The notes beneath the pieces were generated by a model. It worked only from the letters and a program-made list of their open reading frames with translations. It searched no databases and was not told where the DNA came from. Made by a program: the position numbers and the translations under genes. A DNA stretch of 64,000 bases from an uncultured Granulosicoccaceae bacterium. Lineage in GTDB: Bacteria; Pseudomonadota; Gammaproteobacteria; Granulosicoccales; Granulosicoccaceae. Positions 51,614 to 63,314 of the stretch are shown here, piece after piece. Location of the stretch: contig CALHNS010000014.1 of NCBI GenBank assembly GCA_938035125.1, forward strand, positions 62,001 to 126,000. Direction: 5' to 3'. Numbering within the stretch: position 1 is the first letter of the stretch; every line of letters begins with the position of its first letter.

Positions 51614-52531
51614 ATGGTAAAGGAAAATGTGAATATGCGCGCAATGGTGTCGATTGGTGAAGTGATGGCTGAAATTCGCCAATCTCCTGAGTCGAATTTT
51701 GACATTGGGTTCGCAGGGGATACGTTTAATACAGCTGTGTATTGTCAGCGGTTGTTAAACACTGATGAGCGAGTTACCTACGTTACGCGAGTAGGGAAAG
51801 ACCCTTTATCGATGGCTTGGAAACGGTTTGCAAGCCATGAAGGCTTAGATTTATCTTCGGTTTCCTACGACGAATCAGCCAATATTGGTATTTATTCTGT
51901 GTCTACGGATGAAGCCGGTGAAAGAAGCTTCAATTACTGGCGCAATCAGTCAGCTGCTCGAAAATTATTCGATACTGCAGAAAATTTAGCATCAATCCCT
52001 GCTGCACGCATCACCTATCTATCAGGCATTACCTTGGCGATCATGGCGCCCAAAGCGAGGGCGAGCCTCATGAACCATTTGGCGAAATTGTCAAAGTCCA
52101 GTGAAACACATGTTGCGTTTGATTCAAATTATCGACCTGCGTTATGGGAAAGTAAAGATGTGGCGAAAACGGTAATAGAGGAGATGTGGTCGATTGCCGA
52201 TATTGCTTTTCCATCGATCGACGATGAACAAAATCTATTTGGAGACACTGATGATTATGCCGTTGTAGAACGTTTTGCTAAAAAAACATGGGTTGCTTGC
52301 GCCATTAAACGTGGAGATCAAGGCCCCATTTCTCCTTCATTAAAATTTTCTGATAAAGATAAATTTTTACCCGCTGAAAAGGTGGTGGACACCACAGCGG
52401 CTGGGGATAGTTTTAACGGAGGCTATTTAGCCGCCTTTTTGACTGGGCAAGATGAATTGCAATGTTTGCAGGCAGGCCATGCTTGTGCATCTTATGTGGT
52501 TGGTGTTCCCGGTGCAATTTCGCTGTCATAA
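51614..52531 (+). CDS. PfkB-family sugar kinase (2-keto-3-deoxygluconate kinase-like)
   Basis: SIGEVMAEI..., FAGDTFNTAVYCQRLL; C-terminal DTTAAGDSFNGGYLAAFLTG. Confidence 0.83.
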   Translation: MVKENVNMRAMVSIGEVMAEIRQSPESNFDIGFAGDTFNTAVYCQRLLNTDERVTYVTRVGKDPLSMAWKRFASHEGLDLSSVSYDESANIGIYSVSTDEAGERSFNYWRNQSAARKLFDTAENLASIPAARITYLSGITLAIMAPKARASLMNHLAKLSKSSETHVAFDSNYRPALWESKDVAKTVIEEMWSIADIAFPSIDDEQNLFGDTDDYAVVERFAKKTWVACAIKRGDQGPISPSLKFSDKDKFLPAEKVVDTTAAGDSFNGGYLAAFLTGQDELQCLQAGHACASYVVGVPGAISLS

Positions 52532-52580
52532 CTTGAAAGTGTTAACACATCATGTTTTTCGAAAAGACCACGGATTCATC

Positions 52581-53828
52581 ATGCTAAATTCATTCTTCTA
52601 TTCTGGTTCGCTGAGAAATATTTTCAGATTATTAATCAGTTTTTTAGTTGTATTTTTGTCGTGTCCTACATACGCACAAGAAGTGATTCCTATTGCTGAT
52701 GCGCACGTTCACTACAGTCACGATTCTGTTGAACTAACACCGCCTGAACGTGTTATCGAACTGATGCAAAACGCTAATTTAAAATTTGCTTTGGTATCTA
52801 GTTCAGATGATGAAGGCACACAGTTGTTGTATGAATTGGCACCAGATCTTATCGTGCCTGCTTTGCGACCTTATCGTCGCCGTGGTGAAACAGGTTCTTG
52901 GTTTCAAGATGAAAATGCGCTTGCGTATGTGGAAAGTTTACTAGCAAAAAACACATACGCCAGTATTGGCGAGTTTCATTTGTTTGGTGAAAATGCTGAT
53001 TTACCCATACCGCGTCGAATCGTTGAATTGGCGGATGAGTACAATTTGATATTGCAAGCTCATTCCGACGCAGAAGCGGTGGAGCGATTGTTGGCTCAAA
53101 GCGCTGATGTAAAGATTATTTGGGCACATTCTGGCTTTGAAGACCCTGAAGAAATATCGGATATGCTTAGTAAGCATGATCGCCTGTGGGCTGATTTGGC
53201 CTTTCGATCGGAAGTTGGCTTTGGCGGATCGTTGGGGGATGATTGGCGGCAGTTGTTCTTAGATCACCCCGATCGGCTGATGGTAGGCACCGATACTTAC
53301 ACGCCAGAGCGTATGTACTTTATACCGGAGCACGCAGAAAACGTGCGAAGTTGGTTGAAAAGTTTACCGGAGGATGTAGCGCAGAACGTTGCTTGGCGAA
53401 ACGCATTTAATTTGGTAATGCCTGTGTGGCAATACAATAATAGAAACGAAGCATTGATTACTGAATCATCAATCGATAGTTGTTTTGTTGATGAAGCGCA
53501 AGACTCTGCGTTTTTAGAAAGTGATAACTATCGGGCAATTATAGTCACATCATCACCTGTGCAAGTTAGCGAATCTGTGTCGGCCACTGTGATTGTGTGT
53601 GGTGAAATGGGTGATGTCCAATCGATTGAATTAGATGCATCAATGCCTGCCCATGGGCATGGAACAAATTATACGCCTGAAATTTCTGTTCTAGAAATAT
53701 CAGATACTGTGGGTAAGTATCAGGTAGATGGATTAGTGATGCACATGCCAGGAACGTGGCAATGGGATATGAATATCATTAGTTCTAATGGTAGAGAAAC
53801 TTTGAAGCATGAATTTATCTTGCGTTAA
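52581..53828 (+). CDS. Secreted amidohydrolase-like TIM barrel fused to C-terminal YtkA/FixH-like domain
   Basis: Signal peptide; DAHVHYSHDSVEL, IWAHSGFEDPEE, MVGTDTYTPERM; C-terminal MPAHGHGTNYTPEISVLEISDTVGKYQVDGLVMHMPGTWQWDM. Confidence 0.7.
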   Translation: MLNSFFYSGSLRNIFRLLISFLVVFLSCPTYAQEVIPIADAHVHYSHDSVELTPPERVIELMQNANLKFALVSSSDDEGTQLLYELAPDLIVPALRPYRRRGETGSWFQDENALAYVESLLAKNTYASIGEFHLFGENADLPIPRRIVELADEYNLILQAHSDAEAVERLLAQSADVKIIWAHSGFEDPEEISDMLSKHDRLWADLAFRSEVGFGGSLGDDWRQLFLDHPDRLMVGTDTYTPERMYFIPEHAENVRSWLKSLPEDVAQNVAWRNAFNLVMPVWQYNNRNEALITESSIDSCFVDEAQDSAFLESDNYRAIIVTSSPVQVSESVSATVIVCGEMGDVQSIELDASMPAHGHGTNYTPEISVLEISDTVGKYQVDGLVMHMPGTWQWDMNIISSNGRETLKHEFILR

Positions 53829-54963
53829 AAAATATATTTTTAGTGTAGCGCTTTCGTTTTCTTTGGCCTGTACAGCTGTTGCCGAGGTAATTTTTGATGA
53901 GCAGGAAATTAGCGCAATTGCATTACAAGGCCCTTGGCCAGTAAGCACTCCTCAAGATCCTGGTAACGAGTTTTCAGGCCTTTTATGGGCAGAAAGACTC
54001 GGTTCAACGCTTTTCGACGATACGCAGTTGTCACACAATATGTCCGTAGCGTGCAGCACCTGCCATCAAGCTGATAAGGGCTTTGCAGATGGTCGTTCAT
54101 TATCCAAAGGTGAGGCAATTGGTATAAGGAATACGATAGGGTTGTTTAATTCAGGGCTTCAGCGATGGTTTGGTTGGGACGGAGGTACTGATAGTTTATG
54201 GGCGGCCTCTATTAGGCCATTGTTTACAGCCCATGAAATGGCCTCTAGTGTGGATGAGGTTACAAAAGCGCTAAGAGCGAATCACATGTTTGTATCAGCT
54301 ATTGAAGAGCAGGCTGCATCAGTTGAAAACCTAGCAGACTTAGATAACGAGGCGGTGATAGTGCTTGCTGGTAAAGTTATAGCGGCCTATGTGCGAACTT
54401 TGCGTTCAGGTAGAACAGCTTTTGATGATTACCGCGATGCATTAATCAGCGGTGATATTATTGCGCAAGAACAATATCCCAAAGATGCTAAGCGTGGTTT
54501 AAAGATCTTTATCGGTGAAGCAAATTGCCGAGTATGCCATTTCGGATCCAATTTTTCTAATAGTGAATTTCATGACATTGGTCGTCCATTCTTTATCGGT
54601 GTGGGTCAGGTTGATTCAGGGCGTTACTCTGGAATTCAACGAATACAAAAAGATCCTTATTCGTTGAATGGACACTATGGAATAAAGGTGCCAAAGCCAC
54701 AACAGCTAAAAACGGCTAATGTAAAGCTGAGTCAATCTAATTGGGGGCAATGGCGCACGCCATCATTACGCAATTTATCTTTTACTGCTCCTTATATGCA
54801 CGATGGAAGCTTAGAAACGTTACGCGATGTGGTGGATTGGTATGCTGACATCGATCCAACGCGGTTGCATAGTCAGGGTGAAGCTATATTAAAGCCACTT
54901 AATCTTAATGAAAGACAGCGTGAAGATTTAGTGGCATTTTTACGTACCTTATCGGTGAAATAA
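53809..54963 (+). CDS. Di-heme cytochrome c peroxidase / MauG-like protein
   Basis: Two CxxCH motifs (ACSTCHQADKGFADG, NCRVCHFGSNFSN), RTPSLRNLSFTAPYMHDGSLETLRDVVDWY; 20-nt overlap with upstream gene. Confidence 0.87.
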   Translation: MNLSCVKKYIFSVALSFSLACTAVAEVIFDEQEISAIALQGPWPVSTPQDPGNEFSGLLWAERLGSTLFDDTQLSHNMSVACSTCHQADKGFADGRSLSKGEAIGIRNTIGLFNSGLQRWFGWDGGTDSLWAASIRPLFTAHEMASSVDEVTKALRANHMFVSAIEEQAASVENLADLDNEAVIVLAGKVIAAYVRTLRSGRTAFDDYRDALISGDIIAQEQYPKDAKRGLKIFIGEANCRVCHFGSNFSNSEFHDIGRPFFIGVGQVDSGRYSGIQRIQKDPYSLNGHYGIKVPKPQQLKTANVKLSQSNWGQWRTPSLRNLSFTAPYMHDGSLETLRDVVDWYADIDPTRLHSQGEAILKPLNLNERQREDLVAFLRTLSVK

Positions 54964-55332: not shown

Positions 55333-56076
55333 TTGAGCAAAGAACTCAATAAATTAGAAAATTATTTGCTTTTTGACGAGCAACTACCTGCGTGTCTTTC
55401 CGATGGCACATCAGTTTTTAAAAGCGAGTGCCCACCCGATAAAAAATTCAAATCAGAAAATTTGTTTGAATTTCGACGAGGTCGGGGTGATTTTCATGCC
55501 TCTGTGGTAGCAGCGTTATTAGCGCTAATTTTTCTTGCTTTTTTTTGGACGCAAACCGGTTGGGATGCACGCAAACTGCCCGATAATTTGAGTAACTACA
55601 TCGGTTATCAATTCGGTATCACTGAAATTGAAGGAAGGGCAAAACGTTTAGGCACAATTTTAAAGCAGTCGTGGTTTGTACCCATGTTGTGTTTAATGGT
55701 ATTGGTGCCTGCAGCGTTATTCAATCTAAAAAATTCTTGGAAAGTAAGGCGTTGGAGGCTTCGATATCAGCAACCTACCATTGCTCGTTTTGAATATGAA
55801 AAATATTTAAGTGCTTTAGAATTTGTTGCGTATTTTGTGTTGTACACACTAGCCGTTCCAATATTGGGTTATTTATTGGCAACGCTATGTCTTGGCGTTT
55901 ACCTAACATGGCGATTGGGTTATCGAACGTTAAAGTGGTTGATCATCGGATTGGTCGCAAGTTTTGCGATTGTTTTATTGTTTCGAACGGTATTGCAAAT
56001 AAAAACCCCAAATAGTATTTGGTTATACGATTTACTGCCTTCAGCACAACGTGCGTTCATGCTGACGTATTTCTAA
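55333..56076 (+). CDS. Tripartite tricarboxylate transporter small membrane subunit (TctB-like)
   Basis: Multi-TM protein immediately upstream of TctA; TTG start. Confidence 0.65.
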   Translation: MSKELNKLENYLLFDEQLPACLSDGTSVFKSECPPDKKFKSENLFEFRRGRGDFHASVVAALLALIFLAFFWTQTGWDARKLPDNLSNYIGYQFGITEIEGRAKRLGTILKQSWFVPMLCLMVLVPAALFNLKNSWKVRRWRLRYQQPTIARFEYEKYLSALEFVAYFVLYTLAVPILGYLLATLCLGVYLTWRLGYRTLKWLIIGLVASFAIVLLFRTVLQIKTPNSIWLYDLLPSAQRAFMLTYF

Positions 56077-56090
56077 AGGCAAAAAATACA

Positions 56091-57584
56091 GTGGAAGCGT
56101 TTCTTAGTGGTTTAGATCAGTTGTTTCAACCGACCGTGCTTATCGCGATTGTCATAGGCTCTATAGGGGGGCTTATTATTGGTGCCGTTCCAGGTATTGG
56201 GCCAGCGATCGCCATTGCTATTTTGTTGCCTGCTACATTGTTTTTAGATGATTTGGTTGGTTTGGTTTTACTTTTGGGGGTATACGGTTCGTCTATGTAC
56301 GGTGGCGCCATACCGGCCATATTGATTAATACCCCAGGTACCCCAGTTAACGCATTAACAACCTACGACGGCTATGCAATGACGCGGCGTGGCGAAGCAT
56401 CACGAGCATTGGCCATAGCTTATTCTTCATCATTTATTGGTGCCGTGTTCTCTATAACGGTTGCATTAATTGCTTTGTTTGCTTTTGGGCCATATTTAAG
56501 AGACTTAGGTGCGCTATTTGGCCAGCGAGACATAATGATGGCTGCCATTCTGGGTGGGGTTTTACTCATTGCGGCTCATAAGCAGAATATGGGTATTGCA
56601 GCCATGTTGTTTGGCTTTGGTTTTTTAATATCTCTAGTGGGGCGGCAAACTACTCGAAAAATTGATCGCTATACCTTCGATGTTGAATATTTGTATGCAG
56701 GATTCAATTTAATTGTCGTCATCGTTGGGATATTCGCGCTTAGTCAGGCTATGAATTTAATGACGGGTAAAGATGATGATCCGCCGCCTGCAAGAATTTC
56801 AGGCAATGTCTTTCGCGGTTTTACTGAAATTGCGAGTAGAAAACTCATTGCATTCTTATCGGCAGTTTACGGCACCATCATGGGCATCATTCCAGGGGTA
56901 GGGGAATTTGTTGCACAATTTTTTAGTTATTCCACCGCACGTTCCTTATCAAAAGAGCCCACCCGTTTCGGATATGGATCTCCAGAAGGTTTAATTGCTT
57001 CTGAAACATCTAACAATGCGGTTCCTGCCGCTGCAATGATTCCGTTACTGGCTTTAGGTGTGCCAGGTGAGGCATTGACGGCCATGATGATGGTGGTTTT
57101 CTTTGATGCGGGAATAAAGCCTGGGCCAGATATATTTGATAATCATCCTGATTTTTTATTCAGTTTATTCACCGCATTACTGCTAGTGAACATTCTTGTA
57201 GTCACCACATTGTTGTTCTCAACTCGGTTAATAGCGAAAATGATTTATATCCCGAATCGTTTTTTGGGTGCGATGATTATGTTGTTATCGTTTGTCGGCG
57301 TATTCTCCATTAGAAACAGCCTGATAGACTGTATATTTGCGGTAGCGTTCGGTTATATCGGGTTTATTCTTCGTCGGTTGGATTGGCCATTGGTGCCAAT
57401 TGTTCTTGGTATGGTGCTAGGTTCAATTATTACTCAGCGTTTAACGGCTGGTGCTGGGCAAATAAAAACAGCGATGGATTTAATCAATCGACCGGTTTCT
57501 GGAATTTTGTTCGCGGTAATTTGTGCTGTTATCTGTTACATAATATGGCAGGTTATAAGGCAAAGAAGACGTATCCAGCAGTAG
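56091..57584 (+). CDS. Tripartite tricarboxylate transporter permease (TctA family)
   Basis: GGLIIGAVPGIGPAIAIAILLPATLFLDD, YGSSMYGGAIPAILINTPGTPVNALTTYDGYAMTRRGEASRAL. Confidence 0.93.
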   Translation: MEAFLSGLDQLFQPTVLIAIVIGSIGGLIIGAVPGIGPAIAIAILLPATLFLDDLVGLVLLLGVYGSSMYGGAIPAILINTPGTPVNALTTYDGYAMTRRGEASRALAIAYSSSFIGAVFSITVALIALFAFGPYLRDLGALFGQRDIMMAAILGGVLLIAAHKQNMGIAAMLFGFGFLISLVGRQTTRKIDRYTFDVEYLYAGFNLIVVIVGIFALSQAMNLMTGKDDDPPPARISGNVFRGFTEIASRKLIAFLSAVYGTIMGIIPGVGEFVAQFFSYSTARSLSKEPTRFGYGSPEGLIASETSNNAVPAAAMIPLLALGVPGEALTAMMMVVFFDAGIKPGPDIFDNHPDFLFSLFTALLLVNILVVTTLLFSTRLIAKMIYIPNRFLGAMIMLLSFVGVFSIRNSLIDCIFAVAFGYIGFILRRLDWPLVPIVLGMVLGSIITQRLTAGAGQIKTAMDLINRPVSGILFAVICAVICYIIWQVIRQRRRIQQ

Positions 57585-57610
57585 TATTAAATTTCCAATT
57601 GGAGGAAAAA

Positions 57611-58540
57611 ATGAAGAAAAGATTAGTATTAGCAGCAACCTTAGTTGCGGCACTCACGGGGTTTGTTGCCACTGCGCATGCAGAATACCCAGAGGCGCCC
57701 GTGCAGTTTGTGGTGCCTTGGCCCCCTGGTGATTTTGAAGATATTCTTACCCGAATGATTGCTAAGCACATGGAAGAGAAAACGGGTGTGCCTGCATCTG
57801 TTGTCAATAAGCCTGGTGGTGGTGATGGCCCTTTTCCTGGGGCATTAGAAGTGCTGAATGGTCCTGCTGATGGATCTATGGTGGGTTCTTTTGTTATCGG
57901 TGTTCCTATTGTTGGCCCTGTTATCGATATCGGTATTGAAGAAGACAGTTTCACGCCAGTGGGTATCTTTTTAACCTACCCCTTTGTTCTTGCTGCCAGT
58001 GGCGATGCGCCTTACAGCAATATGGCTGAATTAGCCGCTCACGCACAAGATAATGATGTAGTGCTGGGGCACTTTGGTGCAGGGCTTACGCCTACGCGTG
58101 CATCGTTTGCCGCTGCAAGGAAACTGGATTTTGAATTTGCTGATGAATCTGCGTTTGATTTATTAGATTGCAACACCTTATCTTCTGGTGATGCTGATGT
58201 AATCAATACAACATTGGCTTTAGTGGAGCCATGCCTTGATGAGATAAACATATTGGCTAACATCGGTTCAGAGCCCATTGCAAAGCTAGATGGTGTTGAA
58301 ACATTAGCGGCTCAATCGGGTATTAACGATATTGAATTGTGGAATGGTTTATTTGTAAAAAAAGGTACTCCGCAAGACGTGATCGATACCTTGGCATCCA
58401 TTGCTGAAGAGGTCATGGCAGGTGATGAAGCACAGCAACTGATGGCAGAAACCGGTGCACGAGTGTACTGGCAAGGCAGTGATGAGTCGGCAGCGCGCAT
58501 TGAAACCGATCGGGCCAAGAACGCTGAGCTAGACGAATAG
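57611..58540 (+). CDS. Tripartite tricarboxylate transporter substrate-binding protein (TctC/Bug family)
   Basis: Signal peptide then YPEAPVQFVVPWPPGDFEDILTRMIAKHMEEKTGVPASVVNKPGGGDGP. Confidence 0.87.
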   Translation: MKKRLVLAATLVAALTGFVATAHAEYPEAPVQFVVPWPPGDFEDILTRMIAKHMEEKTGVPASVVNKPGGGDGPFPGALEVLNGPADGSMVGSFVIGVPIVGPVIDIGIEEDSFTPVGIFLTYPFVLAASGDAPYSNMAELAAHAQDNDVVLGHFGAGLTPTRASFAAARKLDFEFADESAFDLLDCNTLSSGDADVINTTLALVEPCLDEINILANIGSEPIAKLDGVETLAAQSGINDIELWNGLFVKKGTPQDVIDTLASIAEEVMAGDEAQQLMAETGARVYWQGSDESAARIETDRAKNAELDE

Positions 58541-58579: not shown

Positions 58580-58606
58580 CGAGGCTGCGATTCATTCGCA
58601 GCCTCG
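58580..58606 (+). terminator. Hairpin CGAGGCTGCGA-ttcat-TCGCAGCCTCG between tctC and the amidotransferase gene (no U-tract)
   Basis: 11-bp perfect inverted repeat. Confidence 0.4.
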
Positions 58607-58634: not shown

Positions 58635-59354
58635 ATGATGAAACGAATCAAGCTAGGAATTTTGCAAGTAAACCACGATAAAAGCGTGGAAGTCGGTGAT
58701 GCGTTTCCTGATGATGCTCACCGTTTTCGTGATTTATTTGATGCGCTAGATCAACGGTTTCAATACCGTGTATATATGACCATTGGTGGAGAACTGCCGC
58801 AAGATATCGATGAGCAAGATGCTTATCTCATTACGGGTAGCCCTTTAAGTGTTTTAGATAAACACATTTTTAGCGATAAACTAACCGCTTTTATAAAGCA
58901 GTGCGATGCGAATAAAAAGAAATTAGTGGGTGCATGCTTTGGGCATCAAGCCATTGCATTGGCATTGGGCGGAAAAGTAATGCGTTCTAGCACCGGTTAC
59001 AATATAGGAATTGAGAAGACTCAGTTCATCGAGCATCGTAGTTGGATGGTACCTGCACAGGAATCGCTTTCGATGCACGTGTTTCATGAAGATCAGGTTT
59101 GCGAAGTGCCGCCTGGGTGTGTGCTTTTAGGTAGCAGTGAAAACTGCAAGGTGGCTAGTTTCTCCAAAGGAAATCATATTCTTACTACACAGGCTCATCC
59201 TGAATTCACCAATCCCTTTATGAGCTGTGTGTTGAGTTCTATGGAAAACCATCTTGATGCTAACGTTAGGGAAAAGGTGCAAGCGAGTTTGCAGAATCCG
59301 CAAAATGGTAGTGTGTTTGCCTCTTGGTGTTCTAATTTTTATTTGGAATCTTGA
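58635..59354 (+). CDS. Class I glutamine amidotransferase-like protein
   Basis: Nucleophile motif KKLVGACFGHQAIALALGGKVMRSS; later Q-A-H-P-E: LTTQAHPEFTNPFM. Confidence 0.87.
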   Translation: MMKRIKLGILQVNHDKSVEVGDAFPDDAHRFRDLFDALDQRFQYRVYMTIGGELPQDIDEQDAYLITGSPLSVLDKHIFSDKLTAFIKQCDANKKKLVGACFGHQAIALALGGKVMRSSTGYNIGIEKTQFIEHRSWMVPAQESLSMHVFHEDQVCEVPPGCVLLGSSENCKVASFSKGNHILTTQAHPEFTNPFMSCVLSSMENHLDANVREKVQASLQNPQNGSVFASWCSNFYLES

Positions 59355-59356
59355 TC

Positions 59357-60583
59357 ATGGTGGATGATGGCCATTTGAATCTTCTTAGCCACGATAGCTT
59401 CGCCAATGGTGTGCCCCATAAAACTTTTGAACGGTTGCGCAGAGAGGCGCCAGTTTATTGGACAGAAGGCGATGCGGAGACAAAGGGATTTTGGAGCCTG
59501 ACCCGTCATGCTGATATTTCAAAAGCAAATAAGGAAAGTTTAATTTTCAGTTCGGCTCAAGGCATTCGCTTAGAGGATCAGAGCCATGAAGAATACTTGG
59601 CAAGAAAGACTTTTCAAGAAACGGATGCGCCAGAGCATGCAGAAACACGGCGCAAGGTGAACCCACAGTTTACGGTTAGAAAAATTGCAGAATTTGAACC
59701 CGTGGTTCGAACCTTGGCGCAAAGTATTGTAGGAAATGCGGTAAAACAAAAGGAATTCGATGCGGTAGAAAATATTGCAAAACTGCTACCGATGATGATG
59801 TTGGGTCGAATTTTAGGGTTGCCCGATGAAGACTTAAATTGGTTAGTAGAAAAAGGCGATGCACTGATCGGCAATTCAGACCCTGAATTCACATCAACCG
59901 TTATTGATAAAATGGACACCAGTGAATATCGGATGATGCCGTTTCGAAGTCCTGCTGGGGCTGAGCTGTATGACTATGCTGCGGATGTCATAAACGGCCG
60001 TCGTGCTATTGATAAATCGGGGCTTTTGCATCACATGTTGAATTCTGATGATGCACTGAATGAGCTTGAATTTAAGAATTTCTTCTGCTTGTTAATTGCA
60101 GCAGGAAACGATACCACTCGTTATTCCATTGCGATGGCGTTGTATTTACTAACTCAAGATTCACAATTGGTCGAGCAGTTAAAATCGAATCGCTACTGGG
60201 ATACCTGCGCCGATGAATTTATTCGGTTAGCCTCTCCAACAATGCACTTTCGAAGAACGGCCACCCAAGATATTAAATTGCACGATCAAGTAATCAAGCA
60301 AGGCGATAAGGTATTGCTGTGGTTTGTTTCCGGCAGCCGTGATGAAGCTGTTTACGAAAATCCGCACGCAGTAGCTTTAGGCCGATCACCGAATCGGCAT
60401 TTGGCCTTTGGGCAAGGTGGCCCGCATTTATGTTTGGGGCGATATCTGGCGAAAATGGAAATAACGATTGTTATCCAAGAGCTGGTGAAACACATATCCA
60501 TTATCGAAGCGCTTAATAAACCAGAATGGACGCGTTCAAACTTTATTTGTGGTGTTAAACGTTTGAATGTTCGGGTTGCTTAA
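59357..60583 (+). CDS. Cytochrome P450
   Basis: I-helix LIAAGNDTTRYSIA, ExxR-type region, heme loop LAFGQGGPHLCLGRYLAKME. Confidence 0.95.
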   Translation: MVDDGHLNLLSHDSFANGVPHKTFERLRREAPVYWTEGDAETKGFWSLTRHADISKANKESLIFSSAQGIRLEDQSHEEYLARKTFQETDAPEHAETRRKVNPQFTVRKIAEFEPVVRTLAQSIVGNAVKQKEFDAVENIAKLLPMMMLGRILGLPDEDLNWLVEKGDALIGNSDPEFTSTVIDKMDTSEYRMMPFRSPAGAELYDYAADVINGRRAIDKSGLLHHMLNSDDALNELEFKNFFCLLIAAGNDTTRYSIAMALYLLTQDSQLVEQLKSNRYWDTCADEFIRLASPTMHFRRTATQDIKLHDQVIKQGDKVLLWFVSGSRDEAVYENPHAVALGRSPNRHLAFGQGGPHLCLGRYLAKMEITIVIQELVKHISIIEALNKPEWTRSNFICGVKRLNVRVA

Positions 60584-60588
60584 AAATT

Positions 60589-61854
60589 ATGAATAGAACC
60601 CGAGCTATTTTTTGTGATCTGTTAAATCTTCCCAGAGGCAAGTACATACCATCCGATGTTGCAGCGAAAGGTTCTGTGAATTTTGCTCGTGCGGCATTTG
60701 CGGTTACCTATGATCGAGATTTATTGCCTTTGCCGGGCAGCGGCTTTCACGATGGTCTGCCTGACATGGAGCTTCGGCTTGATGAAGAGCGACGAGTGGC
60801 GTGGCAGCCTGGCACCGAAATCGCCCTAGGTGATATCCACGTTGATAACAAACCCTTTGATCTTTGTGCTCGTTCGCAATTAAAACGAACAGTGGAAGAG
60901 TGGGAATCAATGGGATGCACGCCTATGGTTGGTCTTGAAACAGAGGCCTATATTTTCCAGCGCGATTCTGACGGCGTGTGGCGTCCATACGATACACCGG
61001 GCGCATTCGTTTACGGTACTGGCCCTGAAAACGATCCTCGCGGTTTAATGGATGATATTTGGGAAGCGGCCTATGCTTGTGGTATTCCGTTAGAGAGCGC
61101 TAATGGGGAATATGATAATGGCCAAATCGAATTAACCTTGCGATTTGATGAAGCTGTGAAGGCTTGTGATGATGCGTTTCTTATGCGTGTTATGGCCAGA
61201 GAAATCGCCTTAAAAAAAGGCTTGATGTTGTCGTTTATGCCCAAACCTATTCCTGATCGAGGAGGCTCTGGGTTGCACATAAATTTTAGCTTCGTAGGCC
61301 CTAATGGAGAAAATAACATTGCTCCTAACGGCAAGCTATCTGATACAGCGAAACAATCGATGGCGGGTTTAATGCACCATCATCAGGGGTTGGCTGGGCT
61401 ACTTGCCACAACAACCAATAGTTATGATCGACTAACCGCAGGCAGTATGGCGGGTTACTGGGCAAACTGGGCAGAAGATCATCGAATGGTTACCGTGCGC
61501 AGTTCATCATCGTCTGCGAAAAGCGCACGACTGGAACACCGCATGGCAGATTGTTCCACTAATCCGTATCAAGCGGTTACATCGGTGCTGCAAGCGGCAA
61601 AGCTTGGTGTTTTAAATAAAATGCCGTTACAGCCTGCAGAAGATTTAGATGGTGTAGAAAATGTTCGAGCTAAACACCATGTGCCCGCAAACTTAGATAA
61701 AGCGTTAAACGCTTTGGATAAAGATGTTCAATTACGTCACGCAGTGGGAGAAACCTTTTGCAATGCTTTGTTGTATTTGAAGCGTGATGAGGTGAACAGG
61801 CTTTTAGGTAAGAGTGTTGATGAAGTGCGGGATTTTTATTTACCGTTTATATGA
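60589..61854 (+). CDS. Glutamine synthetase-like (gamma-glutamylamine synthetase type) protein
   Basis: GLETEAYIFQ, SANGEYDNGQIELTLRFDEAVKACDDAFLMRVMAREIALKKGLMLSFMPKPIPDRGGSGLHINFSF. Confidence 0.9.
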   Translation: MNRTRAIFCDLLNLPRGKYIPSDVAAKGSVNFARAAFAVTYDRDLLPLPGSGFHDGLPDMELRLDEERRVAWQPGTEIALGDIHVDNKPFDLCARSQLKRTVEEWESMGCTPMVGLETEAYIFQRDSDGVWRPYDTPGAFVYGTGPENDPRGLMDDIWEAAYACGIPLESANGEYDNGQIELTLRFDEAVKACDDAFLMRVMAREIALKKGLMLSFMPKPIPDRGGSGLHINFSFVGPNGENNIAPNGKLSDTAKQSMAGLMHHHQGLAGLLATTTNSYDRLTAGSMAGYWANWAEDHRMVTVRSSSSSAKSARLEHRMADCSTNPYQAVTSVLQAAKLGVLNKMPLQPAEDLDGVENVRAKHHVPANLDKALNALDKDVQLRHAVGETFCNALLYLKRDEVNRLLGKSVDEVRDFYLPFI

Positions 61855-61901: not shown

Positions 61902-63206
61902 TTACCAGTAGCTCATAGAAGATTGGTAAATATTTTCCATATCCACCAAATTTGATTCTCTGGGTGCATTGTTAATGGCTCGCTTTTGTCTGATAGAAGA
62001 TTCTGCCATCGGTTTTATATCATCGTGGGTAAAACCCAACTCACGTAACCCGTTTGGCATGTGTGTGTCTTTCATTAGTTGAATTAAACGCTTACTGAGC
62101 ACTTCACCTGCATCCTTAATGGTTGCGCCTTGGCTATCTGCGTTTAGATATTGCGCGGCTTCTAGGTGCCTATCAGGTGTGGCTGAGGCGGTGTATTCGA
62201 AAATGCTGGGTGCGTTAACAATAACGCTAATACCGTGTGGTACGAATGGCTCAGGATTGGGGTAATCCCGCGTTGTGATGTCATGCATTAAATGCGTTAC
62301 CCCGTATGACATAGCGTGAGGTAAATGAGTGCCCGAATTGCCAAAGGCTATGCCAGCTAGTGTTGCCCCCCACATTAATTGATCACGCGCTTCTGAATCG
62401 GTTTGGCTGGCAACACCTCGAACCAAATATTGATCTGCAATACGCAAGGCTTCGGGTGCAAATAAATCGCTAAAAGGATTAGCGCCTTGTATTAATTGTC
62501 TTGCGTTGGGGTTGGAAACTTCATCCCATTGAGTGTGCGCTTTCGAGGTGTAACATTCTAAGGCGTGGCACAGTAAATCAAATCCTGTGGATGCAACAAC
62601 ATTCGCAGGTAGGCTATCGCAGTTTGCAGGGTCCACCAGTGCAGCATCTGGCAAAAGCCAAGGATGAGCAACAACAAATTTTGTATTAAGCTCGTTAACA
62701 CGCAGCACAGATAGTGATGTGCTTTCACTGCCTGTGCCAGATGTTGTAGGGCAAGCGATGTGATATGGCAAAGGGCCCGGTACAGCTTTGCCTGTACCCA
62801 CAGGAGGTGCGAAAAAATCCATGATGGGCACATTGTGCGTTGCAACCGCTAATGCCGCTTTGGTGGTGTCGATAACCGATCCGCCACCCACCGATATGGC
62901 ACCATCAAATTTGCCCGCTTTATAAAATGCCGCCGCTTGTGTAACCGTATCGTTGCAGGGTTCTATTCTTATGTCATGGTAAATAGCAAAATCAACGTTC
63001 GATGCTGCTAATGAGGCTTTAACGGTTGCGATTATTGAGGTATCAAGAAGATTGATGTCGGTGAAAACAGCAACCCGTTTTAATTGCTGCTGCTTAATTC
63101 GTTCGCCCACTTCAATTAAACACCCACGGCCAAAAGTCAGTTTGGGAATAGCAACAGTGAAGCTAGTTGCACCGTTTTGGCAAGGAGCGTAGTACTGGCA
63201 ACCCAT
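61902..63206 (-). CDS. Iron-containing alcohol dehydrogenase, hydroxyacid-oxoacid transhydrogenase (ADHFE1)-like
   Basis: FDGAISVGGGSVIDTTKAA, PTTSGTGSESTSLSVL, GFDLLCHALECYTS...GANPFSDLFAPEALRI, GIAFGNSGTHLPHAMSYGV; ATG 63206 preferred. Confidence 0.87.
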   Translation of the reverse strand: MGCQYYAPCQNGATSFTVAIPKLTFGRGCLIEVGERIKQQQLKRVAVFTDINLLDTSIIATVKASLAASNVDFAIYHDIRIEPCNDTVTQAAAFYKAGKFDGAISVGGGSVIDTTKAALAVATHNVPIMDFFAPPVGTGKAVPGPLPYHIACPTTSGTGSESTSLSVLRVNELNTKFVVAHPWLLPDAALVDPANCDSLPANVVASTGFDLLCHALECYTSKAHTQWDEVSNPNARQLIQGANPFSDLFAPEALRIADQYLVRGVASQTDSEARDQLMWGATLAGIAFGNSGTHLPHAMSYGVTHLMHDITTRDYPNPEPFVPHGISVIVNAPSIFEYTASATPDRHLEAAQYLNADSQGATIKDAGEVLSKRLIQLMKDTHMPNGLRELGFTHDDIKPMAESSIRQKRAINNAPRESNLVDMENIYQSSMSYW

Positions 63207-63281
63207 GATGGCGTATCCGCAGTTTTGAATATGTGCCTTTGACTGTATCAAGAATACGTGTGGCTTTGAAGAACTATTGGG

Positions 63282-63314
63282 CAAAAAAAAGCGCTCATTG
63301 CGAGCGCTTTTTCT
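63282..63314 (-). terminator. Hairpin AAAAAAAAGCGCTC-attgc-GAGCGCTTTTTC between two minus-strand genes (bidirectional-looking)
   Basis: Inverted repeat with A- and T-tracts on both sides. Confidence 0.8.

Follow-up and report, generated by a model that had tools for sequence, protein, structure and literature searches.

A candidate glutamylation-dependent P450 module for tyramine-type amines and its link to homoprotocatechuate catabolism in Granulosicoccaceae and other marine bacteria

Introduction

Isopropylamine is degraded through the Ipu pathway by glutamylation, monooxygenation and deglutamylation, which involve the glutamine synthetase (GS)-like enzyme IpuC, a multicomponent cytochrome P450 and an amidotransferase (PMC6776027). 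In the case of anilines and naphthylamine, glutamylation likewise precedes oxygenation, the oxygenase acting on the gamma-glutamyl aromatic amine (PMC11335346). Here we analyze a locus of related composition in a stretch of 64,000 nucleotides (hereafter the window) from an uncultured Granulosicoccaceae bacterium (assembly GCA_938035125.1, contig CALHNS010000014.1, positions 62,001 to 126,000 of the forward strand), in which genes encoding a class I glutamine amidotransferase (GATase)-like hydrolase, a P450 and a GS-like ligase lie side by side. The reading that we favor, and to which we give slightly better than even chances, is that this trio constitutes an Ipu-like module that would glutamylate, oxidize and deglutamylate tyramine-type amines and feed the homoprotocatechuate pathway.

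The Ipu systems of Pseudomonas KIE171 and Paenarthrobacter aurescens TC1, in which isopropylamine is turned into L-alaninol, cluster GS-like, P450 and GATase-like genes as the window does; on plasmid pTC1 of the latter strain the set reads GATase-P450-ferredoxin-reductase-ipuC. Because Ipu already combines a GS-like enzyme, a P450 and an amidotransferase, the use of a P450 as the oxygenase of such a module, as in the original prediction for this locus, which mentioned Ipu but not its P450, is not a new combination. The window differs from the Ipu systems in that its P450 and GS are 29 and 30% identical, respectively, to the pTC1 proteins, its GS falls in another branch, the ferredoxin and reductase included in the pTC1 cluster are missing from it, and its module is linked to homoprotocatechuate genes and to those of a TctBAC transporter. 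The aniline and chloroaniline systems (TdnQ/TdnT, AtdA1/A2, DcaQ/DcaT, NpaA1) share with it the pair of GS-like ligase and GATase-like hydrolase, but they have a Rieske dioxygenase (seen in the Dca cluster) where the window has a P450, their GS lies on a different branch and their sink is catechol instead of homoprotocatechuate. No Rieske dioxygenase alpha or beta subunit gene adjoins the GS-like/GATase-like pair in the window, the oxygenase there being the P450. With the Puu putrescine pathway (PuuA, PuuD, PuuC) the locus has in common a glutamate-amine ligase, a hydrolase and a PuuC-like aldehyde dehydrogenase, which often accompanies the operon in relatives. A putrescine-type pathway was nevertheless ruled out, since the GATase is barely alignable with PuuD (24.6 bits) and is not its kin, and no gene for the FAD oxidase PuuB was found adjoining the trio.

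The CYP151 clusters for piperidine and morpholine (PipA, MorA), which were compared by description, likewise employ a P450 for amine catabolism, and we know of no GATase or homoprotocatechuate link in them. The downstream enzymes HpaD, HpaE, HpaF, HpaG and HpaH are those of the 4-hydroxyphenylacetate/homoprotocatechuate (Hpa) pathway, whose classical entry is the flavin-dependent HpaBC acting on 4-hydroxyphenylacetate; in the entry proposed here HpaBC would be replaced by the P450 and a glutamylated amine. It is this destination, the link of the module to homoprotocatechuate catabolism, that looks new. No description of this operon or of a glutamylation-dependent tyramine route was found in the open-licence literature, where gamma-glutamyltyramine appeared only in methanofuran/methylofuran and metabolomics-type papers.

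A conserved trio with a ligase of the glutamate-amine type

The three genes are intact and co-directional and lie 2-5 nt apart, and their open reading frames and Pfam matches (Table 1) confirm the tightly packed arrangement first described for them. The P450 reading frame as called opens at a TTG codon at 59351, but the starts of its relatives align with an ATG at 59357; with the start moved to this codon, the gaps amount to 2 nt (59354 to 59357) and 5 nt (60583 to 60589).

A P450 scan of species genomes yielded 80 loci from Granulosicoccaceae, Roseobacters, SAR116, Kiloniella, Dongia and others, in which genes were counted by tblastn. A GS-like gene neighbors the P450 in all 80 loci and a GATase gene in 75, so that the adjacency of the trio is not due to chance and the co-conservation expected of the three families is borne out; TctA is present in 59. 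The commonest order in relatives is TctB-TctA-TctC-GATase-P450-GS, and the TctB, TctA and TctC genes of the window (55333-58540) belong to this same conserved order, which means that the operon as originally delimited was correct for the trio but omitted the transporter genes upstream. Ferredoxin and ferredoxin reductase, partners of P450s, are added in some of the relatives' loci. A second, more distant GS-GATase-P450 trio occurs on a plasmid of Sagittula stellata (L040:7923-11230; 34% identity for the P450 and 24% for the GS), where it adjoins genes for an aromatic dioxygenase and a TRAP transporter; as a parallel system it probably serves a different amine.

The type of ligase was assessed by residues, profiles and phylogeny, with positions given in Salmonella typhimurium GlnA numbering. 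In the window GS-like protein the metal ligands E129, E131, E212, E220, H269 and E357 are all retained, R321, R339, R344 and R359 are retained likewise and the glutamate ligands are all kept, while the ammonium-site residues D50, S53, Y179 and E327 are replaced by A, A, V and M. These four positions are also lost in PuuA, IpuC and DcaQ, whereas E. coli GlnA and the GlnA encoded by the same genome (contig C103) retain all the ammonium-site residues. According to the criterion applied to glutamate-putrescine ligase, loss of E327, D50 and Y179 marks a glutamate-amine ligase (PMC8394153). Since the metal and glutamate ligands are kept and the ammonium pocket is lost, as in PuuA, IpuC and DcaQ, the protein is, judging from these residues, a ligase of the glutamate-amine type and not a GlnA, as had been anticipated. 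This GoaS type of GS-like enzyme includes PuuA, IpuC, TdnQ and NpaA1.

The opposite reading, an ordinary nitrogen-assimilation glutamine synthetase whose neighbors are unrelated to it, can draw on the presence of the Gln-synt_C domain; it is extremely improbable given the missing ammonium-site residues, the separate true GlnA of the genome, the conservation of the operon and a score of 180.8 bits on the GlnA equivalog profile, whose cut-off is 429. On the gamma-glutamylputrescine synthetase (PuuA) profile the protein scored 192 bits (cut-off 650), and it is far under the cut-off of the type III GS equivalog as well. In a maximum-likelihood tree the GS proteins of the proteobacterial trios form one group with support of 100, apart from GlnA, PuuA, IpuC and DcaQ, the branching order among these outer groups being weakly supported. 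A true GlnA was thus rejected on residues, profile score and tree, and by its placement the protein falls in none of the three characterized glutamate-amine ligase branches tested.

The other two proteins likewise carry the residues expected of working enzymes. Aligned with its relatives, among which it sits in a conserved clade, the P450 shows intact motifs, namely AGNDTT with the acid-Thr pair of the I-helix, E289xxR292 and the heme ligand Cys361, and its best PDB match is CYP125MRCA (1.5e-80); it looks active, and to this extent the original prediction is supported. In the GATase the Cys-His-Glu triad is intact within GACFGHQ and AHPEF, and over 142 aa the protein shares 35% identity with DcaT from the chloroaniline cluster. 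The partner hydrolase that had been proposed is supported.

Linkage and co-occurrence with homoprotocatechuate genes

Fifty-two of the loci have full flanks (at least 8 kb on either side). An HpaD-type dioxygenase is encoded in 25 of them (21 of the TIGR02295 type and four of the LigB type), a decarboxylase in 29 and a class III omega-transaminase in 39. Recurring neighbors score over their profile cut-offs in the case of HpaD (402 bits, cut-off 321), HpaE (749, cut-off 638) and HpaH (377, cut-off 351), and the HpaG-like neighbor is under its own, while the best solved relatives of the neighboring decarboxylase are DOPA and tyrosine decarboxylases. Locus L075 contains within 20 kb the transaminase, aldehyde dehydrogenase, TctBAC, the trio, HpaF, HpaE, HpaD, the decarboxylase, HpaG and HpaH; genes for UPF0261 (Tm-1-like) and metallo-beta-lactamase-fold proteins recur with transaminase, aldehyde dehydrogenase and TctBAC near Hpa genes (L075:111-2242 and equivalents). 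In Dongia mobilis the row runs aldehyde dehydrogenase, LigB-type dioxygenase, FAH, an acetoacetate-decarboxylase-like gene, decarboxylase, P450, GS-like gene, ferredoxin and reductase, and a LigB-type dioxygenase also accompanies P450-GS genes in Novosphingobium and Streptomyces loci. That dioxygenases of two unrelated kinds adjoin one and the same P450-GS pair gives a useful, independent indication, qualified by the scores of the LigB-type proteins (131-142 bits), which are under the family cut-off of 316.

Because of the homoprotocatechuate linkage and the DOPA/tyrosine-type decarboxylase, the substrate class can be narrowed to aromatic ethylamines, contrary to the original prediction, which held that the substrate could not be read from sequence. 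Of the aliphatic, alicyclic or aromatic amines then considered, aromatic ethylamines such as tyramine fit the loci, and aniline, alicyclic amines and polyamines fit them less well.

The association extends to whole genomes. Among 150 genomes of Roseobacteraceae the P450 clade was present in 36, all matches reaching at least 470 bits with E below 1e-140. HpaD was over its cut-off in 32 of these 36 genomes versus 19 of the 114 without the P450 (odds ratio 40, p=3e-15), compared with 32/36 versus 66/114 for the control HmgA (homogentisate dioxygenase; odds ratio 5.8), and the association of HpaD with the P450 persisted among HmgA-positive genomes (p=6e-11), these p-values being overstated because the genomes are not independent and shared ancestry is ignored. 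In a further sample of 30 P450-bearing genomes, a few of them shared with the 150 Roseobacteraceae, HpaD was over its cut-off in 25 and the LigB type was present in four more, giving 29 with either, and HpaB was over its cut-off in six. P450-bearing Granulosicoccaceae encode HpaD in 13 of 15 cases, and a profile search of the same 15 genomes found HpaB-1 in none, an overlap below expectation (p=0.02); in these counts, too, shared ancestry is ignored.

As regards the genome from which the window derives, one contig (C92) holds HpaR, a Tm-1-like gene, a PuuC-like aldehyde dehydrogenase, HpaD (418 bits, cut-off 321) and HpaG together, another (C32) encodes a decarboxylase of the linked family (55%), and HpaB-1 was not found in this genome (G000). 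Most parts of the proposed pathway are therefore present, though not contiguous.

Proposed pathway and alternative explanations

In the proposed pathway, tyramine would be made by a decarboxylase of the tyrosine/DOPA type whose gene lies outside the operon, elsewhere in the genome, or the amine would be taken up from outside. The GS-like enzyme would attach glutamate to the amine of tyramine in an ATP-dependent reaction, the P450 would hydroxylate the ring, converting gamma-glutamyltyramine into gamma-glutamyldopamine, and the GATase-like enzyme would release dopamine and glutamate. Dopamine would then be converted by a class III transaminase and an aldehyde dehydrogenase to 3,4-dihydroxyphenylacetate, the ring cleavage and degradation of which would fall to HpaD and its partners. 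The glutamyl group may serve to shield the heme iron from the amine and to prevent the build-up of a reactive catecholamine. Tyramine is favored because, in genomes mostly without HpaB, it explains best a succession of ligase, oxygenase, hydrolase, transaminase and aldehyde dehydrogenase that ends in 3,4-dihydroxyphenylacetate. The module itself is well supported, and the sequences show the order of the genes, their catalytic residues, the class of the ligase, the co-conservation and both the linkage and the co-occurrence with HpaD; the identity of the amine, the exact P450 step and the position hydroxylated, the role of the GATase and the cargo of TctBAC we infer. The most specific form of the proposal, a widespread marine route (Granulosicoccaceae, Roseobacters, SAR116) in which gamma-glutamyltyramine is ring-hydroxylated by the P450 and phenolic arylethylamines thereby reach the homoprotocatechuate pathway without HpaBC and without accumulation of free catecholamine, is a tentative one whose chances we put just short of even.

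The P450 could instead oxidize the carbon adjoining the amide nitrogen of a gamma-glutamyl-arylethylamide and thus produce an arylacetaldehyde and glutamine, a disguised oxidative deamination after which an aldehyde dehydrogenase would form 4-hydroxy- or 3,4-dihydroxyphenylacetate and the GATase would hydrolyze glutamine or leftover amide. This is how one would explain the Dongia-type loci, where decarboxylase-P450-GS, an aldehyde dehydrogenase and a ring-cleavage dioxygenase make up an operon without a GATase or a close transaminase, and Novosphingobium EMRT-2, where the aldehyde dehydrogenase gene lies directly behind P450-GS. We consider it unlikely, as such a route from tyramine would need HpaB, absent in 15/15 P450-bearing Granulosicoccaceae and in 24/30 other genomes, a transaminase is near in most full-flank loci (39/52), and the Ipu precedent is a hydroxylation at a carbon that bears no nitrogen.

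Two further explanations concern the substrate and are, to about the same degree, less probable still. If an aliphatic or alicyclic amine of the isopropylamine or piperidine kind were oxidized, the proximity to aromatic genes would be incidental; the gene types match the Ipu cluster on pTC1, and in Gulosibacter, a molinate degrader, an overexpressed glutamine synthetase gene carries a locus tag next to those of pipA-like P450 genes (PMC9477822). Against this stand the identities of 29 and 30% to the pTC1 proteins, the separate GS branches and the linkage and co-occurrence with HpaD, which are too strong for chance. Alternatively, the P450 could be an O-demethylase or N-dealkylase that yields dopamine from a substituted arylethylamine (3-methoxytyramine, N-methyltyramine or synephrine type), glutamylated or free. 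Bacterial P450s often demethylate aryl ethers, and the HpaD linkage fits such an activity equally well, but no sign of one-carbon (C1) handling was noticed in the loci and the linked decarboxylase indicates plain aromatic amino acids.

Several observations weigh against the favored reading, besides the overstated p-values. Dongia-type operons have neither GATase nor transaminase, and their LigB-type dioxygenase is under its cut-off. In a Ruegeria-like subclade (L126-L131; G166, G177, G195, G221) hmgA or paa genes take the place of hpaD near the P450, the P450-GS genes lying about 10 kb from hmgA or adjoining paaABCDE, although this is again a neighborhood of aromatic amino acid catabolism. HpaB occurs alongside the trio in 6/80 loci, and HpaB-1, over its cut-off in 4/150 Roseobacteraceae, coexists with the P450 in three of these four, so that the P450 does not simply replace HpaB; a strict mutual exclusion of the two holds in Granulosicoccaceae (0/15) and fails in Roseobacteraceae. 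Several HpaD-bearing Granulosicoccaceae are without both the P450 and HpaB-1, and hence other inputs to the homoprotocatechuate pathway exist. The Hpa genes of the window's genome are on another contig and do not adjoin the trio. Finally, one locus (L155:5833-7104, G047) has a GS-like gene without P450 and GATase.

In another locus (L145:6731-6895, G017) the GS is a 55-residue remnant adjoining hpaFEDGH, and L147 and L156 possess the TctBAC-transaminase-aldehyde dehydrogenase-Hpa set with no trio nearby. Together with L155, these loci suggest that the trio was added at the front of the pathway and is dispensable there, L155 and L145 being traces of its loss.

Transporter genes and other features of the window

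Table 1. Coordinates of the trio, the transporter genes and the inverted repeat in the window
Feature	Position	Strand	Evidence and remarks
TctB, small membrane subunit of tripartite tricarboxylate transporter	55333-56076	+	PF07331 42.7 bits; reading frame as called starts at TTG
TctA, large membrane subunit	56019-57584	+	PF01970 387 bits; real start probably about 56091
TctC, periplasmic substrate-binding protein with signal peptide	57611-58540	+	PF03401 42.4 bits
Perfect 11-bp inverted repeat, no T tail, between TctC and GATase gene	58580-58606	+	Sequence
Putative class I GATase-like gamma-glutamyl-amide hydrolase	58635-59354	+	239 aa; PF00117 GATase 45.5 bits, over cut-off
Cytochrome P450 (CYP125/CYP126-like group)	59357-60583	+	PF00067 84.6 bits, over cut-off; reading frame as called 59351-60583, 410 aa
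GS-like glutamate-amine ligase (proposed gamma-glutamyl-arylethylamide synthetase)	60589-61854	+	421 aa; Gln-synt_C 247.9 bits, over cut-off

The start of TctC was judged from its signal peptide, the reading frame as called opening at 57383. It resembles carboxylate-binding Bug proteins and terephthalate-binding proteins, its relatives in the PDB being BugD and proteins of the latter kind. In relatives, 57 intergenic stretches between TctC and the GATase gene fold strongly and their hairpin sequences differ, suggesting that structure rather than sequence is what is apparently conserved there. Hairpins are frequent behind highly expressed binding-protein genes. Downstream of the trio, an iron-containing alcohol dehydrogenase (Fe-ADH) gene (61902-63284, minus strand) was discarded as a pathway member because it is convergent in orientation and not conserved. 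Farther upstream, positions 52452-54963 encode an amidohydrolase whose C-terminal part weakly matches YtkA-like proteins and, behind it, a di-heme enzyme of the MauG/MbnH kind that scores 143.8 bits on TIGR04039, under the cut-off of that profile. The two possibly form a separate oxidative modification pair.

Concluding remarks

Amines derived from tyrosine commonly arise when protein decays, and the loci described here come from abundant marine groups, among them Planktomarina, SAR116, Octadecabacter and Tateyamaria. If the proposed pathway is correct, common ocean bacteria would possess an undescribed route for the breakdown of these amines, which would explain the supply of the catechol required by HpaD in many HpaD-bearing genomes without HpaB. 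It would also add an aromatic arylethylamine branch to Ipu- and aniline-type chemistry and provide a function for genes whose annotation has so far stopped at glutamine synthetase, amidotransferase and P450.

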